From: Anadara kagoshimensis | Taxonomy: Eukaryota > Mollusca > Bivalvia > Arcoida > Arcidae | Direction of reading: 5' to 3' | Length of the DNA: 64,000 bases | Assembly (NCBI GenBank): GCA_021292105.1 | Contig: CM037867.1 | Span: 43,836,096 to 43,900,095 of the forward strand | In this document: positions 27,590 through 64,000 of the stretch, in pieces | How the letters are laid out: the number at the start of each line of letters is the position of its first letter | Position numbering within the stretch: position 1 is the first letter of the stretch | Notes under the pieces: model-generated | The model's database searches: none | Told to the model about the DNA's origin: nothing | What the model saw: only the letters and a program-made list of their open reading frames with translations | Position numbers and translations under genes: made by a program

Positions 27590-30500
27590 AGGTTCAACAT
27601 CTCATAGGTCTAGTCTAGATTATTTTCTAGGTGGATTACAACAGAAAGGTTCCACATCTCATAGGTCTACTCTAGGTGGATTACAACAGAAAGGTTCCAC
27701 ATCTCATAGGTCTAGTCTAGATTATTTTTCTAGGTGGATTACAACAGAAAGGTACCACATCTCATAGGTCTAGTCTAGATTATTATCTAGGTGGATTACA
27801 ACAGAAAGGTTCCATATCTCATAGGTCTAGTCTAGATTATTATCTATGTGAATTACAACAGAAAGGTACCATATCTTATAGGTCTACTCTAGGTGGATTA
27901 CAACAGAAAGGTTCCACATCTCATAGGTCTACTCTAGGTGGATTACAACAGAAAGGTACCACATCTCATAGGTCTAGTCTAGATTATTTTCTAGGTGGAT
28001 TACCACAGAAAGGTACCACATCTCATAGGTCTAGTCTAGATTATTTTCTAGGTGGATTACAACAGAAAGGTACCACATCTCATTGGTCTACTCTAGGTGG
28101 ATTACAACAGAAAGGTACCAAATCTCATAGGTCTAGTCTAGATTATCATCTAGGTGAATTACAACAGAAAGGTACCATATCTTATAGGTCTACTCTAGGT
28201 GGATTACAACAGAAAGGTACCACATCTCATAGGTCTACTCTAGGTGGATTACAACAGAAAGGTTCCACATCTCATAGGTCTACTCTAGATTATTATCTAG
28301 GTGGATTACAACAGAAAGGTACCACATCTCATAGGTCTACTCTAGGTGGATTACAACAGAAAGGTACCACATCTCATAGGTCTAGTCTAGATTATTATCT
28401 AGGTGGATTACAACAGAAAGGTACCACATCTCATAGGTCTACTCTAGATTATTATCTATGTGAATTACAACAGAAAGGTTCCACATCTCATAGGTCTACT
28501 CTAGGTGGATTACAACAGAAAGGTACCACATCTCATAGGTCTACTCTAGATTATTATCTAGGTGGATTACAACAGAAAGGTACCACATCTCATAGGTCTA
28601 GTCTAGATTATTTTCTAGGTGGATTACAACAGAAAGGTACCACATCTCATAGGTCTAGTCTAGATTATCATCTAGGTGAATTACAACAGAAAGGTACCAC
28701 ATCTCATAGGTCTAGTCTAGATTATTTTCTAGGTGGATTACCACAGAAAAGTTCCATATCTCATAGGTCTACTCTAGATTATTATCTAGGTGGATTACCA
28801 CAGAAAGGTACCACATCTCATAGGTCTAGTCTAGATTATTTTCTAGGTGGATTACAACAGAAAGGTACCACATCTCATAGGTCTAGTCTAGATTATTATC
28901 TAGGTGGATTACAACAGAAAGGTTCCATATCTCATAGGTCTAGTCTAGATTATCATCTAGGTGAATTACAACAGAAAGGTACCATATCTTATAGGTCTAC
29001 TCTAGGTGGATTACAACAGAAAGGTACCACATCTCATAGGTCTACTCTAGGTGGATTACAACAGAAAGGTTCCACATCTCATAGGTCTAGTCTAGATTAT
29101 TTTCTAGGTGGATTACAACAGAAAGGTACCACATCTCATAGGTCTAGTCTAGATTATTATCTAGGTGGATTACAACAGAAAGGTACCACATCTCATAGGT
29201 CTAGTCTAGATTATTATCTAGGTGGATTACAACAGAAAGGTACCACATCTCATAGGTCTAGTCTAGATTATTATCTCGGTGAATTACAACAGAAAGGTTC
29301 CACATCTTATAGGTCTAGCCTAGATTATTATCTATGTGAATTACAACAGAAAGGTACCACATCTCATAGGTCTAGTCTAGATTATTATCTATGTGAATTA
29401 CAACAGAAAGGTACCACATCTCATAGGTCTACTCTAGATTATTATCTAGGTGGATTACCACAGAAAGGTACCTCATCTTATAGGTCTAGTCTAGATTATT
29501 TTCTATGTGAATTACCTCAGAAAGTTACCACATCTCATAGGTCTAGTCTAGATTATTATCTATGTGAATTACAACAGAAAGGTACCATATCTCATAGGTC
29601 TACTCTAGATTATTATCTAGGTGGATTACAACAGAAAGGTACCACATCTCATAGGTCTACTCTAGATTATTATCTAGGTGGATTACAACAGAAAGGTACC
29701 ACATCTCATAGGTCTAGTCTTGATTTTTTTCTAGGTGGATTACAACAGAAAGGTACCTCATCTTATAGGTCTAGTCTAGATTATTTTCTATGTGAATTAC
29801 CTCAGAAAGTTACCACATCTCATAGGTCTAGTCTAGATTATTATCTATGTGAATTACAACAGAAAGGTACCACATCTCATAGGTCTACTCTAGATTATTA
29901 TCTAGGTGGATTACCACAGAAAGGTACCTCATCTTATAGGTCTAGTCTTGATTATTTTCTATGTGAATTACCTCAGAAAGTTACCACATCTCATAGGTCT
30001 AGTCTAGATTATTATCTATGTGAATTACAACAGAAAGGTACCACATCTCATAGGTCTACTCTAGATTATTATCTACGTGAATTACAACAGAAAGGTACCA
30101 CATCTCATAGGTCTAGTCTAGATTATTATCTATGTGAATTACAACAGAAAGGTACCACATCTCATAGGTCTACTCTAGATTATTATCTATGTGAATTACA
30201 ACAGACAGGTACCACATCTCATAGGTCTACTCTAGATTATTATCTATGTGAATTACAACAGAAAGGTACCACATCTCATAGGTCTAGTCTAGATTTTTAT
30301 CTATGTGAATTACAACAGAAAGGTACCACATCTCATAGGTCTACTCTAGATTATTATCTATGTGAATTACAACAGAAAGGTACCACATCTCATAGGTCTA
30401 GTCTAGATTATTATCTATGTGAATTACAACAGAAAGGTACCACATCTCATAGGTCTAGTCTAGATTATTATCTAGGTGGATTACAACAGAAAGGTACCAC

Positions 30501-33500
30501 ATCTCATAGGTCTACTCTAGGTGGATTACAACAGAAAGGTTCCACATCTCATAGGTCTACTCTAGATTATTATCTAGGTGGATTACAACAGAAAGGTACC
30601 ACATCTCATAGGTCTACTCTAGGTGGATTACAACAGAAAGGTACCACATCTCATAGGTCTAGTCTAGATTATTATCTAGGTGGATTACAACAGAAAGGTA
30701 CCACATCTCATAGGTCTACTCTAGATTATTATCTATGTGAATTACAACAGAAAGGTTCCACATCTCATAGGTCTACTCTAGGTGGATTACAACAGAAAGG
30801 TACCACATCTCATAGGTCTACTCTAGATTATTATCTAGGTGGATTACAACAGAAAGGTACCACATCTCATAGGTCTAGTCTAGATTATTTTCTAGGTGGA
30901 TTACAACAGAAAGGTACCACATCTCATAGGTCTAGTCTAGATTATCATCTAGGTGAATTACAACAGAAAGGTACCACATCTCATAGGTCTAGTCTAGATT
31001 ATTTTCTAGGTGGATTACCACAGAAAAGTTCCATATCTCTTAGGTCTACTCTAGATTATTATCTAGGTGGATTACCACAGAAAGGTACCACATCTCATAG
31101 GTCTAGTCTAGATTATTTTCTAGGTGGATTACCATAGAAAAGTTCCATATCTTATAGGTCTACTCTAGATTATTATCTAGGTGGATTACAACAGAAAAGT
31201 TCCATATCTCATAGGTCTACCCTAGATTATTATCTATGTGAATTACAACAGAAAGGTACCACGTCTCATAGGTCTAGTCTAGATTATTATCTATGTGAAT
31301 TACAACAGAAAGGTACCACATCTCATAGGTCTAGTCTAGATTATTATCTAGGTGGATTACAACAGAAAGGTACCACATCTCATAGGTCTAGTCTAGATTA
31401 TTATCTAGGTGGATTACAACAGAAAGGTACCACATCTCATAGGTCTAGTCTTGATTTTTTTCTAGGTGGATTACAACAGAAAGGTACCACATCTTATAGG
31501 TCTAGTCTAGATTATTTTCTAGGTGGATTACAACAGAAAGGTACAACATCTCATAGGTCTAGGCTAGATTATTATCTATGTGAATTACAACAGAAAGGTT
31601 CTACATCTCATAGGTCTACTCTAGGTGGATTACAACAGAAAGGTACCACATCTCATAGGTCTACTCTAGATTATTATCTAGGTGGATTACAACAGAAAGG
31701 TACCACATCTCATAGGTCTAGTCTAGATTATCATCTATGTGAATTACAACAGAAAGGTTCCACATCTCATAGGTCTACTCTAGGTGGATTACAACAGAAA
31801 GGTACCACATCTCATAGGTCTACTCTAGATTATTATCTAGGTGGATTACAACAGAAAGGTACCACATCTCATAGGTCTAGTTTAGATTATTATCTAGGTG
31901 GATTACAACAGAAAGGTACCACATCTCATAGGTCTAGTCTTGATTTTTTTCTAGGTGGATTACAACAGAAAGGTACCACATCTTATAGGTCTAGTCTAGA
32001 TTATTTTCTAGGTGGATTACAACAGAAAGGTACCACATCTCATAGGTCTAGGCTAGATTATTATCTATGTGAATTACCACAGAAAGGTACCACATCTCAT
32101 AGGTCTAGTCTAGATTTTTTTCTAGGTGGATTACAACAGAAAGGTACCAAATCTTATAGATCTAGTCTAGATTATTATCTAGGAGGATAACAACAAAAAG
32201 GTTCCATATCTCATAGGTCTAGTCTAGATTATTATCTAGGTGAATTACAACAGAAAGGTTCCATATCTCATAGGTCTACTCTAGGTGGATTACAACAGAA
32301 AGGTACCACATCTCATAGGTCTAGTCTAGATTATTATCTAGGTTGATCAATACAGATAGGTACCACACTCAAGGGATCTAGTCTAAATACATTATTATCT
32401 AGGTGGACCAATACAGATAGGTACCACACTCAAGGGATCTAGTCTCAATACATTTTATCTAGGTGTATCTAAGTGGATCAATACAGAAAGGTGCCACACT
32501 CAAGGGATCTAGTCTAAATACATTATTATCTAGGTAGATCAATACAGATAGGTACCACACACAAGGGATCTAGTCACAATACATTATTATCTAGGTGGAT
32601 CAATGCAGATAGGTACCACACTCAAGGGATCTAGTCTAAATACATTATTATCTAGGTGGACCAATACAGATAGGTACCACACTCAAGGGATCTAGTCTCA
32701 ATACATTTTATCTAGGTGTATCTAAGTGGATCAATACAGAAAGGTGCCACACTCAAGGGATCTAGTCTAAATACATTATTATCAAGGTGGATTACTACAG
32801 ATAGGTACCACACTCAAGGGATCTAGTCTAAATACATTATTATCTAGGTGGATCAATACAGATAGGTACCACACTCAAGGGATCTAGTCACAATACATTA
32901 TTATCTAGGTGGATCAATACAGATAGGTACCACACTCAAGGGATCTAGTCACAATATGTTATTATCAAGGTGGATTACTACAGATAGGTACCACACTCAA
33001 GGGATCTAGTCACAATACATTATTATCAAGGTGGATTACTACAGATAGGTACCACACTTAAGGGATCTAGTCACAATACATTATTATCTAGGTGGATTAC
33101 TACAGAAAGGTACCACACTCAAGGGATCTAGTCACAATACATTATTATCTAGGTGGATTACTACAGATAGGTACCACACTCAAGGGATCTAGTCACAATA
33201 CAATTTTTTTTAGGTGGATTACAACAGAAAGGTACCAAATCTCATAGGTCTAGTCTAGATTATTTTCTAGGTGGATTACAACAGAAAGGTACCACATCTC
33301 ATAGGTTTAGTCTAGATTATTATCTATGTGAATTAAAACAGAAAGGTACCACATCTCATAGGTCTACTCTAGGTGGATTACAACAGAAAGGTTCCACATC
33401 TCATAGGTCTAGTCTAGATTATTATCTAGGTGAATTACAACAGAAAGCAGCCCTTTCAACAGATTTTAAAGTAGCCGACAAATTTTCTGGAGTAGACAGC

Positions 33501-34680
33501 AAATTTAGTTGTAACTCTATATAAATGTAATACTGATGAATGAAAGTAGGCACCAGACAAAGTGTAGAAATACCAAAGTAGACGACAGGTTTTGCTGGTT
33601 GCTGGCTTCTATTGAAACCGCTGAGAAAGGTTCCATATCTCATAGGTCTACTCTAGGTGGATTACAACAGAAAGGTACCAAATCTTATAGGTCTAGTCTA
33701 GATTATTATCTAGGAGGATAACAACAGAAAGGTTCCATTCTCATAGGTCTAGTCTAGATTATTATCTAGGTGAATTACAACAGAAAGGTTCCATATCTCA
33801 TAGGTCTACTCTAGGTGGATTACAACAGAAAGGTACCACATCTCATAGGTCTAGTCTAGATTATTATCTAGGTGGATCAATACAGATAGGTACCATACTC
33901 AATGGATCTAGTCTAAATACATTATTATCTAGGTGGACCAATACAGATAGGTACCACACTCAAGGGATCTAGTCTCAATACATTTTATCTAGGTGTATGT
34001 AGGTGGATCAATACAGAAAGGTGCCACACTCAAGGGATCTAGTCTAAATACATTATTATCTAGGTGGATCAATACAGATAGGTACCACACTCAAGGGATC
34101 TAGTCACAATACATTATTATCTAGGTTGATCAATACAGATAGGTACCACACTCAAGGGATCTAGTCACAATATGTTATTATCAAGGTGGATTACTACAGA
34201 TAGGTACCACACTCAAGGGATCTAGTCTAAATACATTATTATCAAGGTGGATTACTACAGATAGGTACCACACTCAAGGGATCTAGTCACAATACATTAT
34301 TATCTAGGTGGATTACTACAGAAAGGTACCACACTCAAGGGATCTAGTCACAATACATTATTATCTAGGTGGATTACTACAGATAGGTACCACACTCAAG
34401 GGATCTAGTCACAATACATTATTATCAAGGGATTACTACAGATAGGTACCACACTCAAGGGATCTAGTCACAATACATTACTATCAAGGTAGATCAATAC
34501 TACAGAAAGGTGCCACACTCAAGGTATCTAGTCACAATACATTATTAACAAGGTGGATCAATACAGACATGTTCTACAACCTAGGGGTCTTGTCACAATA
34601 CATTATTAACAAGGTGGATCAATACAGATAGGTACCACAACCTAGGGGTCTTGTCGTAATGGATTATTATCTAAAAATAA
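27590..34680. repeat. 7 kb minisatellite, 57 bp and 61-62 bp unit families
   Basis: Main unit of 57 bp: AGGTCTAGTCTAGATTATTA, then TCTAGGTGGATTACAACAGA, then AAGGTACCACATCTCAT. A frequent 45 bp variant lacks 12 bases (the AGATTATTATCT part). From about 32340 to 33200 and 33870 to 34680 a diverged 61-62 bp family takes over (GATCTAGTCTAAATACATTA, then TTATCTAGGTGGATCAATAC, then AGATAGGTACCACACTCAAGG). Most units carry GGTACC. Order of variants is duplicated at larger scale, and one non-repeat island interrupts it at 33447-33625. It fills the intron between kinesin exons 5 and 6. Confidence 0.95.
33447..33625. other. Non-repetitive island inside the 57 bp array
   Basis: About 180 bp with no array homology, between CAACAGAAA and GAAAGGTTCC. 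Plus-strand reading gives FKVADKFSGVDSKFSCNSI and, in another frame, RNTKVDDRFCWLLASIETAE; neither is recognised. Two half-copies (AAGTAGCCGACAAATTTTCT and AAGTAGACGACAGGTTTTGC) suggest an internal duplication. Confidence 0.6.
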
Positions 34681-34691
34681 ATTATACATAC

Positions 34692-34829
34692 AGGTTTAAC
34701 ATCCCAGGGGTCATCTCCTTCCTGGAAGTCCAAATACATCTCATTCATCTTAAACTTTCTGTTTATAAATTTAGATTTTGGCCAGATCCACTCATATTTA
34801 GTTTCAATATCAGTGACTTTTACCATAGC
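34692..34829 (-). CDS. Kinesin-3 exon 5
   Basis: 138 nt, 46 codons, phase 0. Acceptor TTTCACAG/GCTATGGTA, donor AAACCT/GTATGTATA. It reads AMVKVTDIETKYEWIWPKSK, then FINRKFKMNEMYLDFQEGDD and PWDVKP. The MVKV-T-x-E-T-x-x-EW-x-W strand pair and NRKF-x-M-x-EMY helix are strongly conserved in kinesin-3 motors. It is preceded in the transcript by exon 4 (...GRTE), giving RTE-AMVKV across the junction; between the two lies the array made of exon 4 copies. Confidence 0.9.
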
Positions 34830-35089
34830 CTGTGAAAATAAAAGTAAATAACATGCATTCAAAATTGCTTCCATATTATTATAAGAAAAATTGTCAGAAG
34901 CCAGTCTAGCTAACCTGGACATCTAACAGTTACAGTTACAACTTTTGATTTTGTAACCAGATATGAAAGTGTTTCCTACAATATGGTAAATACAATGTAA
35001 ATGTAGTTGTCAGTTATATCAAACAGTTCTTTAGTTACATCATTTGACAGATTCTAATTATGACAATTGTTCTTATTTATTGCATAACC

Positions 35090-38000
35090 TTCATCACATC
35101 AAACTTGATATATTTATTGATATACTGACCTCAGTTCTACACAAGCGTTTACCTCTAGCATCAGGGGAGACAATCATTACATCAAACTTGATATATTTAC
35201 TGATATACTGACCTCAGTTCTACACAAGCGTTTATCTCTAGCATCAGGGGAGACAATCATTACATCAAACTTGATATATTTATTGATATACTGACCTCAG
35301 TATTACACGAGCGTTTACCTCTAGCATCAGGGGAGACAATCATCACATCAAACTTGATATATTTATTGATATACTGACCTCAGTTCTACCCGAGTGAGTG
35401 AGTGAGTAATGGTGTTTAACGTCCCAGTCAAGAATATTTCACTTATATCGAGACATCGCCAGCTATAGGCAGAATTTTTGCCTGTGCGTTGCACTGATGG
35501 CATTATACAGCAGGGTTCTTTAGCATGCCAAGCCCACCATGACACGGGACCTCGTTTATTTTAAGTTCCCATCCGAAAGAACCGTGACTTTCATTTCTAC
35601 CCGAGCATTTATCTCTAGCATCAGGGGAGACAATCATTAGATCAAACTTGATATTTATTGATATACAGACCTCAGTTCTACACGACCGTTTACCTCTAGC
35701 ATCAGGGGAGACAATCATTACATCAAACTTGATATTTACTGATATACTGACCTCAGTTCTACACAAGCATTTATCTCTAGCATCAGGGGAGACAATCATT
35801 ACATCAAACTTGATATTTATTGATATATTGACCTCAGTTCTACAGGAGCCTTTATCACTAGCATCAGGGGAGACAATAATCACATCAAACTTGATATATT
35901 TACTGATATACTGACCTCATTTCTACATGAGCGTTTACCTCTAGCATCAGGGGAGACAATCACTACATCAAACTTGATATTTATTGATATACTTTCCTCA
36001 GTTCTACACGAGAGTTCACCTCTAGCATCAGGGGAGACAATCATTACATCAAACTTTATATATTTATTGATATACTGACCTCAGTTCTACCCGAGAGTTC
36101 ACCTCTAGCATCAGGGGAGACAATCATTACATCAAACTTGATATATTTACTGATATACTGACCTCAGTTGTACACAAGTGTTTACTGCTAGCATCAGGGG
36201 AGACAATAATCACAACAAACTTGATATATTTATTGATATATGGACCTCAGTTCTACATGAGAGTTTACCTCTAGCATCAGGGGAGACAATCATTACATCA
36301 AACTTGATATTTATTGATATACCGACCTCAGTTCTACATGAGAGTTTACCTCTAGCATCAGGGGAGACAATCATTACATCAAACTTGATATTTATTGATA
36401 TATTGACCTCCGTTCTACACGAGAGTTTACCTCTAGCATCAAGGGAGACAATCATTACATCAAACTTGATATTTATTGATATACTGACCTCAGTTCTACA
36501 AGACCGTTTATCTCTAGCATCAGGGGAGACAATCATTACATCAAACTTGATATATTTACTGATATACTGACCTCAGTTCTACACGACCGTTTATCTCTAG
36601 CATCAGGGGAGACAATCATTACATCAAACTTGATATATTTACTGATATACTGACCTCAGTTCTACACGAGAGTTTACCTGTAGCATCAGGGGAGACAATA
36701 ATTACATCAAACTTGATATATTTACTGATATACTGACCTCAGTATTACACGAGCGTTTACCTCTAGCATCAGGGGAGACAATCATTACATCAAACTTGAT
36801 ATATTTACTGATATACTGACCTCAGTTCTACACGAGAGTTTACCTCTAGCATCAGGGGAGACAATCATTACATCAAACTTGATATATTTACTGATATACT
36901 GACCTCAGTTCTACACGAGCGTTTACCTCTACATCAGGGAGACAATCATTACATCAAACTTGATATTGATATACTGACCTCAGTTCTACACAAGAGTTTA
37001 CCTCTAGCATCAGGGAGACAATCATTACATCAAACTTGATATTTATTGATATACCGACCTCAGTTCTACACGAGAGTTTACCTCTAGCATCAAGGGAGAC
37101 AATCATTACATCAAACTTGATATTTATTGATATACTGACCTCAGTTCTACACAAGAGCTTACCTCTAGCATCAGGGGAGACAATCATTACATCAAACTTG
37201 ATATTTATTGATATACTGACCTCAGTTCTACACGAGAGTTTACCTCTAGCATCAGGGGAGACAATCATCACATCAAACTTGATATATTTACTGATATACT
37301 GACCTCAGTTCTACACGAGCGTTTACCTCTAACATCAGGGAAGACAATCATTACATCAAACTTGATATATTTACTGATATACTGACCTCAGTTCTACACG
37401 AGAGTTTACCTCTAGCATCAGGGGAGACAATCATTAAATCAAACTTGATATATTTACTGATATACTGACCTCAGTATTACACAAGCGTTTACCTCTAGCA
37501 TCAGGGGAGACAATCATTACATCAAACTTGATATATTTACTGATATACTGACCTCAGTTCTACACGAGAGTATACCTCTAGCATCAGGGGAGACAATCAT
37601 TACATCAAACTTGATATATTTACTGATATACTGACCTCAGTTCTACACGAGCGTTTACCTCTAACATCAGGGAAGACAATCATTACATCAAACTTGATAT
37701 TGATATACTGACCTCAGTTCTACACAAGAGTTTACCTCTAGCATCAGGGGAGACAATCATTACATCAAACTTGATATTTATTGATATACGACCTCAGTTC
37801 TACACGAGAGTTTACCTCTAGCATCAGGGGAGACAATCATCACATCAAACTTGATATATTTACTGATATACTGACCTCAGTTCTACACGAGCGTTTACCT
37901 CTAACATCAGGGAAGACAATCATTACATCAAACTTGATATTGATATACTGACCTCAGTTCTACACAAGAGTTTACCTCTAGCATCAGGGGAGACAATCAT

Positions 38001-39779
38001 TACATCAAACTTGATATTTATTGATATACCGACCTCAGTTCTACACGAGAGTTTACCTCTAGCATCAAGGGAGACAATCATTACATCAAACTTGATATAT
38101 TTACTGATATACTGACCTCAGTTCTACAAGACCGTTTATCTCTAGCATCAGGGGAGACAATCATTACATCAAACTTGATACATTTACTGATATACTGACC
38201 TCAGTATTACACGAGCGTTTACCTCTAGCATCAGGGGAGACAATCATTACATCAAACTTGATATTTATTGATATACCGACCTCAGTTCTACACAAGAGCT
38301 TACCTTTAGCATCAGGGGAGACAATCATTACATCAAACTTGATATTTATTGATATACTGACCTCAGTTCTACACGAGAGTTTACCTCTAGCATCAGGGGA
38401 GACAATCATCACATCAAACTTGATATATTTACTGATATACTGACCTCAGTTCTACACGAGCGTTTACCTCTACATCAGGGAAGACAATCATTACATCAAA
38501 CTTGATATTGATATACTGACCTCAGTTCTACACAAGAGTTTACCTCTAGCATCAGGGGAGACAATCATTACATCAAACTTGATATTTACTGATATACTGA
38601 CCTCAGTTCTACACAAGAGTTTACCTCTAGCATCAGGGGAGACAATCATTACATCAAACTTGATATTTATTGATATTGTGACCTCAGTTCTACACGAGCA
38701 TTTACCTCTAGCATCAGGGGAGACAATCATCACATCAAACTTGATATTTATTGATATACTGACCTCAGTTTACACGAGTTTACCTCTACATCAGGGGAGA
38801 CAATCATTACATCAAACTTGATATTGATATACTGACCTCAGTTCTACACGAGCGTTTACCTCAAGCATCAGGGGAGACAATCATCACATCAAACTTGATA
38901 TTTATTGATATACTGACCTCAGTTTTACACGAGCGTTTACCTCTAGCATCAGGGGAGACAATCATCACATCAAACTTGATATTTATTGATATACTGACCT
39001 CAGTTTTACACGAGCGTTTACCTCTAGCATCAGGGGAGACAATCATTACATCAAACTTGATATTTATTGATTTTGTGACCTCAGTTCTACACAATAGTTT
39101 ACCTCTAGCATCAGGGGAGACAATCATCACATCAAACTTGATATTTATTGATAGACTGACCTCAGTTTACACGAGCGTTTACCTCTAACATCAGGGAGAC
39201 AATCATTACATCAAACTTGATATTGATATACTGACCTCAGTTCTACACGAGCGTTTACCTCAAGCATCAGGGGAGACAATCATACATCAAACTGATATAT
39301 TTATTGATATACTGACCTCAGTTCTACATGAGAGTTTACCTCTAGCATCAGGGGAGACAATCATTACATCAAACTTGATATTTATTGATATACTGACCTC
39401 AGTTCTACACGAGAGTTTACCTCAAGCATCAGGGGAACAATAATCACATCAAACTTGATATATTATTGATATACTGACCTCAGTTCTGCACGAGCATTTA
39501 CCTCTAGCATCAGGGGAGACAATCATACATCAAACTTGATATTTATTGATATACTGACCTCAGTTCTACACGAGAGTTACCTCTAGCATCAGGGGAGACA
39601 ATAATCACATCAAACTTGATATATTTACTGATATACTGACCTCAGTTTACCTAAGAGTTCACCTCTAGCATCAGGGAAGACAATCATTACATCAAACTTT
39701 ATATATTTATTGATATACTGACCTCAGTTCTACCCGAAAGTTCACCTCTAGCATCAGGGGAGACAATCATCAAATCAAA
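35090..39779 (-). repeat. Tandem array of kinesin exon 4 3' ends with splice donors (81-83 bp unit)
   Basis: On the minus strand each unit is 57 nt homologous to the end of exon 4, encoding FDVMIVSPDARGKLSCRTE (real exon: FDLMIVSPDARGELSGRTE), then the donor GAG/GTCAGTATATCA and about 24 nt (26 in the longer variant) of intron before the next unit. About 55 units run without a break from the real exon (39723) to about 35090, apart from a SINE at 35395-35594. The 81 bp form keeps the reading frame from unit to unit; the 83 bp form and small indels break it. The donor GT is kept in almost all copies. Some units have short deletions. This is duplicated exon sequence, not new genes. Confidence 0.95.
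35395..35594 (-). mobile_element. 200 bp SINE inserted in the exon-derived array
   Basis: Flanked by an exact 11 bp duplication TTCTACCCGAG (35384-35394 and 35595-35605), present once in ordinary units. On the minus strand it ends GGGACGTTAAACACCATTAC, then TCACTCACTCA, a short-repeat tail. The inner segment GTCTCGATATAAGTGAAATA, then TTCTTGACTGGG, recurs as scraps at about 51395-51445, 52255-52310 and 52665-52700. Target duplication plus tail indicate target-primed insertion by a LINE. No clear tRNA head is visible at its 5' end. Confidence 0.85.
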
Positions 39780-39871
39780 CTGTTTCTTTTTATCTAGATC
39801 TTTACTGATATCATTAGCTTCTTGTATTTTTGGCAGTAAATCTAACAAATCATCTTGTAACAGAGAGTCAT
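39723..39871 (-). CDS. Kinesin-3 exon 4, source of the downstream array
   Basis: 149 nt: two bases completing a split Asp codon, then 49 codons, ending phase 0. Acceptor TTTTTAG/ATGACTCTC, donor ACTGAG/GTCAGTAT. It reads DDSLLQDDLLDLLPKIQEAN, then DISKDLDKKKQFDLMIVSPD and ARGELSGRTE. The EAN-x-IS-x-x-LDKK-x-xF-x-L-x-hVSP segment is typical of the post-FHA helix and strand in kinesin-3 proteins. The first 92 nt are unique; the last 57 nt plus donor match the array unit. The real copy differs from array units at several codons (GEL versus GKL, SGR versus SCR), which identifies it as the expressed exon because its Glu and Gly keep the unique upstream part in phase. Confidence 0.9.
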
Positions 39872-53459: not shown

Positions 53460-55224
53460 ATACTTTTCGCGTCTTCATCACTTAAGAGTTCTGTAACTCC
53501 GGGATATCACGTATTAACACTGGATGTTGACTCAATCATGTGATATGACAAATAAATAACACTGGATGTGGACTCAACCATGTGATATGACAAATAAATA
53601 ACACTGGATGTTGACTCAATCATGCAATATAACAAATAAATAACACTGGATGTTGACTCAATCATGTGATATGACAAATAAATAACACTGGATGTTGACT
53701 TAATCATGTGATATGACAAACAATTAACACTGGATGTGGACTCAATCATGTGATATGACAAATAAATAACACTGCATGTTGACTCAATCATGTGATATGA
53801 CAAACAATTAACACTGAATGTGGACTCAATCATGTGATATGACAAACAATTAACACTGGATGTTGACTCAATTATGTGATATGACAAATAAATAGCACTG
53901 GATGTTGACTTAATCATGTGATATGACAAACAATTAACACTGGATGTTGACTTAATCATGTGATATGACAAACAATTAACACTGGATGTTGACTCAATCA
54001 TGTGATATGACAAATAAATAACACTGAATGTGGACTCAATCATGTGATATGACAAATAAATAACACTGGATGTGGACTCAATCATGTTATATGACAAACA
54101 ATTAACACTGGATGTTGACTCAATCATGTGATATGACAAATAACACTGGATGTGGACTCAATCATGTTATATGACAAACAATTAACACTGAATGTGGACT
54201 CAATCATGTGATATGACAAATAACACTGGATGTGGACTCAATCATGTGATATAACAAATAAATAATGCTGGATGTGGACTCAATTATGTGATATGACAAA
54301 TAAATAACACAGAATATTGACTCGTGTGATATGACAAACAATTAACACTGAATATGGACTCAATCATGTGATATGACAAATAAATAACACTGGATGTGGA
54401 CTCAATCATGTTATATGACAAACAATTAACACTGAATGTGGACTCAATCATGTGATATGACAAATAACACTGGATGTGGACGCAATTATGTGATATAACA
54501 AATAAATAACACTGGATGTGGACTCAATCACAATTAACACTGAATGTGGACTCGATCATGTGATATGACAAATAAATAACACTGAATGTGGACTCAATCA
54601 TGTAATATAACAAATAAATAATTACACTGAATGTGGACTCAATCATGTGATATGACAAATAACACTGGATGTGGACTCAATCATGTGATATAACAAATAA
54701 ATAATGCTGGATGTGGACTCAATTATGTGATATGACAAATAAATAACACAGAATATTGACTCATGTGATATGACAAACAATTAACACTGAATATGGACTC
54801 AATCATGTGATATGACAAATAAATAACACTGGATGTGGACTCAATCATGTGATATGACAAATAACACTGGATGTGAACTCAATCATGTGATATAACAAAT
54901 AATTAACACTGGATGTGGACTCAATTATGTGATATGACAAATAAATAACACAGAATATTGACTCATGTGATATGACAAACAATTAACACTGAATATGGAC
55001 TCAATCATGTGATATGACAAACAATTAACACTGGATGTGAACTCAATCATGTGATATGACAATAAATAACACTGGATGTTGACTCAATCATGTGATATGA
55101 CAAATAAATAACACTGGATATCCACTCAATCATGTGATACTACATAAACTGTTTGTACAGACAAGATATATATTAAGATATATTAAAACAACAAATTAAT
55201 ATAGATGTAATAAATAAATATTAC

Positions 55225-55356
55225 CTATCATTATGAGCTATTGGAGTCTTTGATGCTATAGTTTTACCATTATGTAAAACACGAGTCACCTGAGAACATG
55301 GCTCTACACTAAATTTTCCCTCTTCTTCTCGAATAACTGCATGTTTCTCTGCAATA
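55225..55356 (-). CDS. Kinesin-3 exon 2, FHA domain core
   Basis: 132 nt, one base completing a Ser codon, 43 codons, then two bases of Arg. Acceptor TTATTTAG/TATTGCAGAG, donor GATAG/GTAATATT. It reads (S)IAEKHAVIREEEGKFSVEPC, then SQVTRVLHNGKTIASKTPIA and HND. The H-A-x-I, N-G-K and L-x-H-x-DR positions are those of the phosphothreonine-binding FHA fold; in kinesin-3 motors this domain follows the neck coil and helps autoinhibition and cargo binding. The splice into exon 3 restores DR-LIFG. Confidence 0.92.
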
Positions 55357-55884: not shown

Positions 55885-58800
55885 CAACAACAACAACAGA
55901 TAACAGTAGTTCACAGGGAATGTTGTCAGAGTGGTCTGTAATGACAACAGCAACAGATAACAGTAGTTCACAGGGAATGTTGTTAGTAGTCTCTAATGAC
56001 AACAGCAAAAGATAACAGTAGTACACAGGGAATGTTCTCAGTGGTCTGTAATGACAAAAGCAACAGATAACAGTGGTATACAGGGAATGTTGTCAGTGGT
56101 CTCTAATGACAACAGCAACAGATAACAGAAGTATACAGGGAATTTTGTCAGTAGTCTGTAATGACAACAGCAACAGATAACAGTAGTACACAGGGAATGT
56201 TGTCAGTGGTCTCTAATGACAACAGCAACAGATAACAGTAGTACACAGGGAATGTTCTCAGTGGTCTGTAATGACAAAAGCAACAGTTAACAGTAGTATA
56301 CAGGGAATGTTGTCAGTGGTCTGTAATGACAACAGCAACAGATAACAGGAGTATACAGGGAATGTTGTCAGTGGTCTGTAATGACAACAGCAACAGATAA
56401 CAGTAGTACACAGGGAATGTTGTTAGTTAACAATGTTGTCAGTGGTCTATAATGACAACAGCAACAGATAACAGTAGTATACAGTGAATGTTGTCAGTGG
56501 TCTGTAATGACAACAGCAACAGATAACAGGAGTATACAGGGAATGTTGTCAGTGGTCTGTAATGACAACAGCAACAGATAACAGTAGTACACAGGGAATG
56601 TTGTTAGTTAACAATGTTGTCAGTGGTCTATAATGACAACAGCAACAGATAACAGTAGTATACAGTGAATGTTGTCAGTGGTCTGTAATGACAACAATAA
56701 TAGTTAACAGGAGTACACAGGGAATGTTGTCAGTGGTCTGTAATGACAACAGTAATAGTTAACAGGAGTACACAGGGAATGTTGTCAGTGGTCTGTAATG
56801 ACAAAAGCAACAGTTAACAGGAGTACACAGGGAATGTTGTCAGTGGTCTGTAACACAACAGTAATAGTTAACAGGAGTACACAGGGAATGTTGTCAGTGG
56901 TCTGTAATGACAAAAGCAACAGATAACAGTAGTATACAGGGAATGTTGTCAGTGGTCTGTAATGACAACAACAACAGATAACAGTAGTATACAGGGAATG
57001 TTGTCAGTGGTCTGTAACACAACAGTAATAGTTAACAGGAGTACACAGGGAATGTTGTCAGTGGTCTGTAATGACAAAAGCAACAGTTAACAGTAGTATA
57101 CAGGGAATGTTGTCAGTGGTCTGTAACACAACAGTAATAGTTAACAGGAGTACACAGGGAATGTTGTCAGTGGTCTATAATGACAAAAGCAACAGTTAAC
57201 AGGAGTACACAGGGAATGTTGTCAGTGGTCTGTAACACAACAGTAATAGTTAACAGGATTACACAGGGAATGTTGTCAGTGGTCTGTAATTACAACAGCA
57301 ACAGATAACAGGAGTACACAGGGAATGTTGTCAGTGGTCTGTAATGACAACAGCAACAGATAACAGTAGTATACAGGGAATGTTGTCAGTGGTCTATAAT
57401 GACAACAGCAACAGGTAACAGTAGTATACAGGGAATGGTGTCAGTGGTCTGTAATGACAACAGCAAGAGATAACAGTAGTGCACAGGGAATGTTGTCAGT
57501 GGCCTGTAATGACAACAGCAACAGATAACAGGAGTATACAGGGAATGTTGTCAGTGGTCTATAATGACAAAAGCAACAGATAACAGTAGTATACAGGGAA
57601 TGTTGTCAGTGGTCTGTAATGACAACAGCAACAGATAACAGTAGTGTACAGGGAATGTTGTCAGTGGTCTATAATGACAACAGCAACAGATAACAGTAGT
57701 ATACAGGGAATGTTGTCAGTGGTCTATAATGACAACAGTAATAGTTAACAGGAGTACACAGGGAATGTTGTCAGTGGTCTATAATGACAAAAGCAACAGA
57801 TAACAGTAGTATACAGGGAATGTTGTTAGTGGTCTGTAATGACAACAGCAACAGATAACAGTAGTATACAGGGAATGTTGTCAGTGGCCTGTAATGAAAC
57901 AGCAACAGATAACAGTAGTATACAGGGAATGTTGTCAGTGGTCTGTAATGACAACAGCAACAGATAACAGTAGTATACAGGGAATGTTGTCAGTGGCCTG
58001 TAATGACAACAGCAACAGATAACAGTAGTATACAGGGAATGTTGTCAGTGGTCTATAATGACAACAGCAACAGATAACAGTAGTATACAGGGAATGTTGT
58101 CAGTGGTCTGTAATGACAAAAGCAACAGTTAACAGGAGTACACAGGGAATGTTGTCAGTGGTCTGTAATTACAACAGCAACAGATAACAGGAGTATACAG
58201 GGAATGTTGTCAGTGGTCTATAATGACAACAGCAACAGATAACAGTAGTATACAGGGAATGTTGTCAGTGGTCTATAATGACAACAGCAACAGATAACAG
58301 TAGTATACAGGGAATGTTGTCAGTGGTCTATAATGACAACAGCAACAGATAACAGTAGTATACAGGGAATGTTGTCAGTGGTCTGTAATGACAACAGTAA
58401 TAGTTAACAGGAGTACACAGGGAATGTTGTCAGTGGTCTGTAATGACAACAGTAATAGTTAACAGGAGTACACAGGGAATGTTGTCAGTGGTCTGTAATG
58501 ACAACAGTAATAGTTAACAGGAGTACACAGGGAATGTTGTCAGTGGTCTATAATGACAACAGCAACAGATAACAGTAGTATACAGGGAATGTTGTCAGTG
58601 GTCTGTAATGACAACAGTAATAGTTAACAGGAGTACACAGGGAATGTTGTCAGTGGTCTGTAACACAACAGTAATAGTGAACAGGAGTACACAGCAAATG
58701 TTGTCAGTGGTCTGTAATGACAACAGTAATAGTTAACAGGACTACACAGCCAATGTTGTCAGTGGTCTGTAATGACAACAGCAACAGATAACAGTAGTAT

Positions 58801-61800
58801 ACAGGGAATATTGTCAGTGGTCTGTAATGACAACAGCAACATATAACAGTAGTATACAGGGAATGTTGCCAGTGGTCTGTAATGACAACAGCAACAGATA
58901 ACAGTAGTATACAGGGAATGTTGTCAGTGGTCTGTAATGACAACAGCAACAGATAACAGTAGTATACAGGGAATATTGTCAGTGGTCTGTAATGACAACA
59001 GCAACATATAACAGTAGTATACAGGGAATGTTGTCAGTGGTCTATAATGACAACAGCAACAGATAACAGTAGTACACAGGGAATGTTGTCAGTGGTCTGT
59101 AATGACAACAGTAATAGTTAACAGGAGTACACAGGGAATGTTGTCAGTGGTCTGTAATGACAACAGTAATAGTTAACAGGAGTACACAGCAAATGTTGTC
59201 AGTGGTCTGTAATGACAACAGTAATAGTTAACAGGAGTACACAGGGAATTTTGTCAGTGGTATGTAATGACAAAAGCAATAGTTAACAGGAGTACACAGG
59301 GAATGTTGTCAGTGGTCTGTAATGACAACAGTAATAGTTAACAGGAGTACAAAGCAAATGTTGTCAGTGGTCTGTAATGACAACAGCAACAGATAACAGT
59401 AGTATACAGGGAATGTTGTCAGTGGTCTGTAATGACAACAGCAACAGATAACAGTAGTATACAGGGAATGTTGTCAGTGGTCTGTAATGACAACAGCAAC
59501 AGATAACAGTAGTATACAGGGAATGTTGTCAGTGGTCTATAATGACAACAGCAACAGATAACAGTAGTATACAGGGAATGTTGTCAGTCGTCTGTAATGA
59601 CAACAGTAATAGTTAACAGGAGTACACAGGGAATGTTTTGTCAGGGGTATGTAATGACAAAGCAACAGTTAACAGAGTACACAGGGAATGTTCTCAGTGG
59701 TCTGTAATGACAACAGCAACAGATAACAGTAGTATACAGGGAATGTTGTCAGTGGTCTATAATGACAACAGCAACAGATAACAGTAGTATACAGGGAATG
59801 TTGTCAGTGGTCTGTAATGACAACAGCAACAGATAACAGTAGTATACAGGGAATGTTGTCATGGTCTGTGACAACAGTAATAGTTAACAGGAGTACACAG
59901 GGAATGTTGTCAGTGGTCTGTAACACAACAGTAATAGTTAACAGGAGTACACAGCAAATGTTGTCAGTGGTCTGTAATGACAACAATAATAGTTAACAGG
60001 AGTACACAGCGAATGTTGTCAGTGGTCTGTAATGACAACAGCAACAGATAACAGTAGTATACAGGGAATGTTGTCAGTGGTCTGTAATGACAACAGCAAC
60101 AGATAACAGGAGTATACAGGGAATGTTGTCAGTGGTCTATCATGACAACAGCAACAGATAACAGTAGTATACAGGGAATGTTGTCAGTGGTCTGTAATGA
60201 CAACAGTAATAGTTAACAGGAGTACACAGGGAATGTTGTCAGTGGTCTGTAACAACAGTAATAGTTAACAGGAATACACAGCAAATGTTGTCAGTGGTCT
60301 GTAATGACAACAGTAATAGTTAACAGGAGTACACAGGGAATTTGTCAGTGGTATGTAATGACAAAGCAATAGTTAACAGGAGTACACAGGGAATGTTGTC
60401 AGTGGTCTGTAATGACAACAGTAATAGTTAACAGGAGTACAAAGAATGTTGTCAGTGGTCTGTAATGACAACAGCAACAGATAACAGTAGTATACAGGGA
60501 ATGTTGTCAGTGGTCTGTAATGACAACAGCAACAGATAACAGTAGTATACAGGGAATGTTGTCAGTGGTCTGTAATGACAACAGCAACAGATAACAGTAG
60601 TATACAGGGAATGTTGTCAGTGGTCTATAATGACAACAGCAACAGATAACAGTAGTATACAGGGAATGTTGTCAGTCGTCTGTAATGACAACAGTAATAG
60701 TTAACAGGAGTACACAGGGAATTTTGTCAGTGGTATGTAATGACAAAGCAACAGTAACAGGAGTACACAGGGAATGTTGTCAGTGGTCTGTAATGACAAC
60801 AGCAACAGAAACAGTAGTATACAGGGAATGTTGTCAGTGGTATAATGACAACAGCAACAGATAAAGTAGTATACAGGGAATGTTGTCAGTGGTCTGTAAT
60901 GACAACAGCAACAGATAACAGTAGTATACAGGGAATGTTGTCAATGGTCTGTAATGACAACAGTAATAGTTAACAGGAGTACACAGGAATGTTGTCAGTG
61001 GTCTGTAACACAACATAATAGTTAACAGGAGTACACAGCAAATGTTGTCAGTGGTCTGTAATGACAACATAATAGTTAACAGGAGTACACAGCGAATGTT
61101 GTCAGTGGTCTGTAATGACAACAGCAACAGATAACAGTAGTATACAGGGAATGTTGTCAGTGGTCTGTAATGACAACAGCAACAGATAACAGGAGTATAC
61201 AGGGAATGTTGTCAGTGGTCTATCATGACAACAGCAACAGATAACAGTAGTATACAGGGAATGTTGTCAGTGGTCTGTAATGACAACAGTAATAGTTAAC
61301 AGGAGTACACAGGGAATGTTGTCAGTGGTCTGTAACACAACAGTAATAGTTAACAGGATACACAGCAAATGTTGTCAGTGGTCTGTAATGACAACAGTAA
61401 TAGTTAACAGGAGTACAGGCGAATGTTGTCAGTGGTCTGTAATGACAACAGCAACAGATAACAGTAGTATACAGGGAATGTTGTCAGTGGTCTATAATGA
61501 CAACAGCAACAGATAACAGTAGTATACAGGGAATGTTGTCAGTGGTCTGTAATGACAACAGCAACAGATAACAGTAGTATACAGGGAATGTTGTCAGTGG
61601 TCTGTAATGACAACAGCAACAGATAACAGAGTACACAGCAATGTTGTCAGTGGTCTATAATGACAACAGCAACAGATAACAGTAGTACACAGGGAATGTT
61701 GTCAGTGGTCTGTAATGACAACAGTAATAGTTAACAGGAGTACACAGCCAATGTTGTCAGTGGTCTGTAATGACAACAGCAACAGATAACAGTGTATACA

Positions 61801-64000
61801 GGGAATGTTGTCAGTGGCCTGTAATGACAACAGCAACAGATAACAGTAGTATACAGGGAATGTTGTCAGTGGCCTGTAATGACAACAGCAACAGATAACA
61901 GTAGTATACAGGGAATGTTGTCAGTGGTCTATAATGACAACAGCAACAGATAACAGTAGTATACAGGGAATGTTGTCAGTGGTCTGTAATGACAACAGTA
62001 ATAGTTAACAGGAGTACACAGGGAATGTTGTCAGTGGTCTGTAATGACAACAGTAATAGTGAACAGGAGTACACAGCAAATGTTGTTAGTGGTCTGTAAT
62101 GACAACAGTAATAGTTAACAGGACTACACAGATAATGTTGTCAGTGGCCTGTAATGACAACAGCAACAGATAACAGTAGTATACAGGGAATGTTGTCAGT
62201 GGTCTGTAATGACAACAGCAACATATAACAGTAGTACACAGGGAATGTTGTCAGTGGTGTATAATGACAACAGCAACAGATAACAGTAGTATACAGGGAA
62301 TGTTGTCAGTGGCCTGTAATGACAACAGCAACAGAAAACAGTAGTATGCAGGGAATGTTGTCAGTGGTCTGTAATGACAACAGCAACAGATAACAGTAGT
62401 ATACAGAGAATGTTGTCAGTGGTCTATAATGACAACAGCAACAGATAACAGTAGTATACAGGGAATGTTGTCAGTGGCCTGTAATGACAACAGCAACAGA
62501 TAACAGTAGTACACAGGGAATGTTGTCAGTGGTCTCTAATGACAACAGTAATAGTTAACAGGAGTACACAGGGAATGTTGTCAGTGGTCTGTAATGACAA
62601 AAGTAATAGTTAATAGGAGTACACAGCAAATGTTGTCAGTGGTCTGTAATGACAACAGCAACAGATAACAGTAGTATACAGGGAATGTTGTCAGTGGTCT
62701 GTAATGACAACAGCAACAGATAACAGTAGTATACAGGGAATGTTGTCAGTGGTCTGTAATGACAACAGCAACAGATAACAGTAGTATACAGGGAATGTTG
62801 TCAGTGGTCTATAATGACAACAGCAACAGATAACAGTAGTATACAGGGAATGTTGTCAGTGGTCTGTAATGACAACAGTAATAGTTAACAGGAGTACACA
62901 GGGAATTTTGTCAGTGGTTTGTAATGACAAAAGCAACAGTTAACAGGAGTACACAGGGAATGTTGTCAGTGGTCTGTAATGACAACAGTAATAGTTAACA
63001 GGAGTACACAGGGAATGCTGTCAGTGGTCTGTAATGACAAAAGCAACAGATAACAGTAGTATACAGGGAATGTTGTTAGTGGTCTGTAATGACAACAACA
63101 ACAGATAACAGTAGTATACAGGGAATGTTGTCAGTGGTCTATAATGACAACAGCAACAGATAACAGTAGTATACAGTGAATGTTGTTAGTGTTCTGTAAT
63201 GACAACAGCAATAGATAACAGTAGTATACAGAGAATGTCAGTGGTCTGTAATGACAACAGTAATAGTTAACAGGAGTACACAGGGAATGTTGTCAGTGGT
63301 CTGTAACACAACAGTAATAGTTAACAGGAGTACACAGCAAATGTTGTCAGTGGTCTGTAATGACAACAGTAATAGTTAACAGGAGTACACAGCGAATGTT
63401 GTCAGTGGTCTGTAATGACAACAGCAACAGATAACAGTAGTATACAGGGAATGTTGTCAGTGGTCTGTAATGACAACAGCAACAGATAACAGGAGTACAC
63501 AGGGAATGTTGTCAGTGGTCTATAATGACAACAGCAACAGATAACAGTAGTATACAGGGAATGTTATCAGTCGTCTGTAATGACAACAGTAATAGTTAAC
63601 AGGAGTACACAGGGAATGTTGTCAGTGGTCTTTAACACAACAGTAATAGTTAACAGGAATACACAGCAAATGTTGTCAGTGGTCTGTAATGACAACAGTA
63701 ATAGTTAACAGGAGTACACAGCGAATGTTGTCAGTGGTCTGTAATGACAACAGCAACAGATAACAGGAGTACACAGGGAATGTTGTCAGTGGTCTCTAAT
63801 GACAACAACAACAGATAACAGTAGTATACAGGTAATGTTGCCAGTGGTCTCTAATGACAACAGCAACAGATAACAGCAGTACACAGGGAATGTTGTCAGT
63901 GGTCTCTAATGACAACAGCAACAGATAACAGTAGTACACAGGGAATGTTGTCAGTGGTCTGTAATGACAAAAGCAACAGATAACAGTAATACACAGAGAA
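55885..64000. repeat. 55 bp minisatellite, at least 8.1 kb, runs off the window
   Basis: Unit ACAGGGAATGTTGTCAGTGG, then TCTGTAATGACAACAGCAAC, then AGATAACAGTAGTAT, about 145 units. Two variants alternate in blocks: A (CAGCAACAGATAACAGTAGT) and B (CAGTAATAGTTAACAGGAGT, often followed by ACACAGCAAATG). Units lacking TGA in TAATGACAACA also recur. 55 is not a multiple of three, so open frames over several units are accidental. It lies in the intron upstream of the first visible kinesin exon. Confidence 0.95.

Follow-up and report, generated by a model that had tools for sequence, protein, structure and literature searches.

The closest described counterpart of the locus reported here is the human gene IFI6, whose minisatellite has a repeat unit of 12 bp. 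According to a 1995 paper, this minisatellite reportedly supplies several splice donors. PMC4526556 describes the IFI6 repeat units as serving as splice donor sites, with three mRNA species. Repeats at the exon boundaries of human duplicated genes are likewise able to change splicing and either stay in exons or form novel introns (PMC2812944). A duplication across an exon-intron border in potato is a single duplication on the acceptor side. Splicing decoys and decoy exons, which are linked to intron retention (see also PMC8706089), add donors that can be rivals of the real one.

The kinesin array analysed here resembles the IFI6 minisatellite in being a tandem repeat across an exon-intron junction, with 53 of 54 array donors keeping their GT; unlike the much shorter IFI6 repeat, its unit includes 57 nt that are coding exon, and it occurs in 54 copies over 4.6 kb. 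It shares the exon-boundary position with the repeats of the human duplicated genes but lies wholly inside an old intron; it crosses an exon-intron border like the potato duplication, and its unit also has an internal AGGT, but no new intron has arisen. Its extra donors, like the decoys, may compete with the real one, but they form an array and not a single conserved decoy exon. A minisatellite supplying several donors has already been reported; what sets the present one apart is its scale, the coding sequence inside its unit and its built-in stop. Phrase searches of open papers found, among the matches listed, neither the same phenomenon in bivalves nor a report on competing donors; we make no claim of unpublished status.

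The features to which we refer are listed below with their positions in the window (the whole stretch of 64,000 nucleotides that was analysed).

39723..39871, minus strand: kinesin exon (exon 4), 149 nt, phase 0 end, encoding ...FDLMIVSPDARGELSGRTE (translation)
34692..34829, minus strand: next exon (exon 5), acceptor CACAG/GCT (translation, PDB match, acceptor scores, BLAST)
34830..39722, minus strand: host intron, 4893 nt, array almost throughout
39717..39722, minus strand: real donor GTCAGT, preceded by GAG
39723..39779, minus strand: 57-nt exon end, array founder; with the first 26 intron nt it makes up unit u00 (unit split, alignment, BLAST)
35104..39696, minus strand: array units u01-u54, 54 units of 76-83 bp, one interrupted (TRF, unit split, alignment)
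reaching 35091, minus strand: partial tail of 13 nt (unit split)
35353..35646, minus strand: u51, carrying a SINE-like insertion (5'-truncated, ~200 bp) with ACTC tail and ~11 bp flanking repeat (CTCGGGTAGAA)
36054..36136, minus strand: u45, encoding FDVMIVSPDARGELSGRTE, the unit nearest to the exon copy
39699..39701, minus strand: in-frame TAA at intron +22 to +24, found by read-through of the exon and within every extension to an array donor

Exons 4 and 5, joined, match PDB chain 7wrg_A with E 1.8e-17 (residues 2-94 of 96); the database entry itself reads 'Kinesin-like protein', and we take 7wrg to be KLP-6. The joined exons also match Kif13b weakly (E 0.013), and two bacterial chains score weakly with them as well (E 0.0096 and 0.025), which we took as chance. 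Two exons at 55745-55225 match 7wrg_A, KIF1A and KIF1B, and kinesin-3 structures are matched by the FHA-type exons and the post-FHA region of the host gene. The FHA exon ending at 55225 joins the exon starting at 39871 with a phase mismatch, and a three-frame search of the ~15 kb between them against the PDB did not find the exon expected there. In the 20 kb upstream, a Kinesin_assoc match was weak and below the cut-off, and the motor domain was not found. As corrections to the initial annotation, the exon limits are 39871..39723 and the first intron base is 39722.

That the following intron contains a tandem array whose unit is the end of this exon with its donor had been proposed before, and unit split, alignment and BLAST all bear it out. 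By alignment, each unit is made up of the last 57 nt of the exon, the donor GAG/GTCAGT and 20-26 nt of intron. The proposed ~55-fold array beginning at the real exon is present as the exon copy and 54 further units, with the unit length corrected to 76-83 bp. TRF reports an 81-bp unit in 51.7 copies (35591-39781) and an 83-bp unit in 3.6 copies (35091-35389); among the 53 uninterrupted units 20 measure 81 bp, 19 measure 83 bp and five 77 bp, the others being 82 bp (three), 80 bp (three), 76 bp (two) and 79 bp (one) long. A fuzzy junction scan gave 56 matches, which after removal of a spurious one are the real donor and 54 array donors. As the initial annotation stated, almost every unit keeps the donor GT, and the dozens of decoy donors that it envisaged are there: GTCAGT is exact in 41 of the 53 uninterrupted units, the internal GT of the duplicated AGGT is retained in 47, and the exact 9-mer of the real donor, GAGGTCAGT, recurs 42 times in the intron besides the real one (chance level: mean 0.03, maximum 1 in 200 first-order Markov simulations), with two more copies outside the intron when both strands are counted. 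The CAAG said to precede each 57-nt segment ends 51 of the 53 uninterrupted units in an alignment counted by eye, and so holds for most but not all. BLASTed against the window, the exon returns itself and 54 partial matches, 51 of which begin at exon nt 91. The acceptor of the founding exon is absent from the copies, which are therefore not duplications of a complete exon together with its two splice sites. When four further exons of the gene were tried as founders by BLAST against the window, each matched only itself.

The exon segment itself is older than the array. The 57 nt align with FEIVLVSPEMRGLTSGLTE of 7wrg_A, and a paralog (contig C13) reads FELALISAQARGQKDGRTA at the corresponding place, followed by an intron of ~1.2 kb at the same place and in the same phase as the host intron, as read from the translation. 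TRF finds no such array there, and when the exon end was compared by BLAST with 4 kb around the paralog, the best E was 0.084, which is not significant. Thus the exon came first and the array arose from it; the host intron is not new either, since the paralog has one at the same place, so that the case does not count as intron gain. Near its 3' end, the paralog intron (L024:1820-2021) carries repeats of its own, 82 bp in 2.5 copies, with an acceptor-like TTTTTCATTAG/GTT directly before the real acceptor, so that here, too, a splice junction is the site of a duplication. Within the array, u45 differs from the exon copy at three of 83 columns (six for the next nearest unit, nine for the adjoining u01) and shares with it the TATAAAG end; it is either near the founder or was copied from the exon at a later time. 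A 301-bp query gave 26 matches in the 1.115-Gb genome, every one of them at the array locus, in a search that scores only the best candidates and skips very common words; as these copies are at one locus and not at several, we rejected dispersed satellite DNA. A 28-base pattern had no relatives in viral contigs. The insertion in u51, a truncated copy, is flanked on each side by a direct repeat of ~11 bp (read by eye) and was therefore inserted after the array had formed; its family is dispersed, with at least 41 genome matches when 40 of 2919 first-look candidates were scored. This SINE-like family, with its ACTC tail, is represented at 35400-35600 and counts at least 40 copies of ~93-94% identity, again from 2919 first-look candidates.

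The units are not equally related to one another. Nearest-relative distances average 0.85 differences in u14-u40 (n=27) and 3.42 in the other 26 units (p 1.6e-7, for core limits that were set after the distances had been seen), and thus the centre of the array is its most homogeneous part. A homogeneous core with old edges is the pattern expected of unequal exchange. A regular higher-order repeat was rejected, the mean distance barely changing with lag (best lag 9, 6.3 differences); near-identical pairs are most frequent at lag 7 (6 of 46), and the nearly flat profile leaves room only for irregular block duplications. The same data bear on whether the assembler invented the array or badly mis-sized it. 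Tandem arrays are hard to assemble; however, the units differ among themselves by 7.4 positions in mean pairwise comparison, one contains a SINE-like element with flanking repeats, and the window is free of N within a contig of 44.2 Mb, so that we regard an artefact as highly improbable. The exact copy number of the array is uncertain. The surroundings are rich in similar sequence: tandem repeats with a period of at least 10 occupy 46.2% of the window versus 11.8% across eight fixed places totalling 48 kb, and 46.3% of 48 kb from other loci (three beside the window, four at other kinesin-like matches). The window ends ~315 kb from the end of its contig.

What the copies could contribute to a protein is limited by a stop codon close to the exon. 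Reading through from the exon adds eight residues before the TAA at 39701-39699. As this TAA lies inside any extension past 39699, every donor beyond it, GAG-preceded or not, gives a stop. When all 100 GAG/GT sites from the exon start to the intron end were joined to exon 5, a single one (39723) gave an open frame, and the other 99 stopped at codon index 47 or 56, which rules out protein variants by donor shift. Thus all array donors lead to a stop and in-frame variants of this kind are excluded, unlike in IFI6. Nor do the copies look like maintained coding sequence. Of the 53 uninterrupted units, 42 have their 57-nt part intact and free of stops, and the 36 distinct variants of this part comprise nine synonymous and 27 other changes, one variant making a stop; with a synonymous fraction of 0.25 versus 0.24 expected without selection, we see no selection on the copies as coding sequence. 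Diversity at codon positions 1, 2 and 3 is 0.031, 0.108 and 0.072, the second position being highest, and the exon-derived part (0.070) is no better kept than the intron part (0.046). These data also bear on the initial annotation's idea that single 57-nt copies are spliced in as frame-neutral inserts of 19 codons. Frame neutrality stands for 41 of 52 candidates, which are in frame and stop-free, but the acceptors that such inserts would use, AG/TTTGAT, are very poor (n=54, mean -7.1, best -3.2) compared with five real acceptors of the host gene (1.2 to 7.9), all scored with a simplified acceptor matrix. The better acceptor-like GATGCTAG/ sites (n=42, mean 1.1 by the same matrix, similar to the exon's own acceptor at 1.21) would yield frame-shifting pieces of 25 nt. 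With no codon constraint in the copies either, splicing of such inserts is extremely unlikely, and the predicted proteins with extra FDVMIVSP-type segments are not upheld, given the 99 closed joins, the weak AG/TTTGAT acceptors and the synonymous fraction.

Because its anatomy, the lack of codon constraint, the single locus and the minisatellite-rich neighbourhood all fit, we consider the array to be a neutral single-locus minisatellite, seeded by duplication of a splice junction, with the exon-proximal donor in use (probability roughly three in four). An ancestral tandem duplication of the last 57 nt of the exon, the donor and ~24 nt of intron, still visible in the sequence, would have been multiplied inside the intron by repeated unequal exchange; the surrounding region is rich in minisatellites and lies close to the end of its contig. 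As the donor at 39722 is the only one with an open frame and the nearest to the exon's own acceptor, we infer that the spliceosome pairs these two, in which case the array would leave with the intron. Transcripts using an array donor would carry the premature stop seen above and should be destroyed. The protein is most likely unchanged by the array.

All the same, 53 of the 54 array donors have their GT, and among 471 intronic GTs there are 47 whose score equals or exceeds that of the real donor (3.73; donor scores are from an approximate human-type matrix), so that the array cannot simply be taken as harmless. Dozens of its donors could bind U1 without being used, slow the removal of the intron and, through its retention, lower the yield of full-length kinesin in a copy-number-dependent way. 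In favour of such decoys are the 42 exact 9-mer copies inside the intron and two units with donors stronger than the real one by the same matrix (AAG/GTAAGC 7.09, GAG/GTAAGC 6.29). According to PMC8706089 an added donor caused intron retention in human VWF, but donors at other places had no effect in the same work, and the units of the array show no sign of selection. Donor retention does not decide the matter, as unequal exchange could homogenise the units and so preserve the likeness of the donors even where selection is absent; on balance, we think an effect as decoys unlikely. Structure that hides the decoys is not supported: in predicted openness the real donor ranks only 38th of 43, and hence predicted structure does not explain its choice. 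One unit, u38, carries CTACAG/GTAAAC at 36677, an acceptor-like (4.53) and a donor-like (3.66) signal at one point that resembles a recursive splice site; its acceptor-like part is the best in the intron after the real one by the simplified matrix.

Hexamers resembling polyadenylation signals are numerous as well. The sense strand of the intron holds 30 AATAAA and 21 AGTAAA, versus one of each on the opposite strand (Markov expectation for AATAAA: mean 4.8, maximum 11), and in 19 copies, the exon's own included, donor and AATAAA lie within one 20-mer. With a U1 site and AATAAA per unit, transcripts might end early inside the intron and give a truncated kinesin (...RTEVSISINI), an outcome that U1 would restrain; in human, mouse and Drosophila, U1 shields transcripts against such signals within introns (PMC5499120). 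However, AATAAA is already present once in the founding unit, so that the hexamer count follows from amplification alone, and the hexamer sits 5' of the stop; early ends of this kind therefore strike us as very unlikely. A related idea, that the array acts as a copy-number rheostat whose length sets intron retention or early ends, with individuals differing in full-length versus tail-less kinesin-3, is speculative and in our view rather improbable.

The locus is a natural experiment on how donors are chosen, since a single real donor faces 42 nine-base-identical copies within one intron. If splicing nevertheless takes the first donor nearly every time, the sequence of the donor is insufficient by itself, and exon definition or the order of synthesis must explain the choice. 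Individuals are likely to differ in array length, which would make the effect of decoy number on splicing measurable without engineering. The array also illustrates how a coding exon can become the seed of a minisatellite.

Other arrays lie close by. The next intron (27626-34673) is nearly filled by one with units of 45, 57 and 61 bp, which starts ~20 nt past the exon; by BLAST, the exons beside it have no copies inside it. On the plus strand, 27721-31137 contains a stop-free frame of 1138 residues that consists only of the 57-bp array (19 codons per unit) and is a trap for gene finders. Arrays of 42 bp and 55 bp adjoin the exons of the FHA region (53515-55139 and 55887-64000), the latter continuing through 4.6 kb of a further locus (L009), and the 10 kb preceding the window (L011:1-9999) consist entirely of a 43-bp array in 235 copies.
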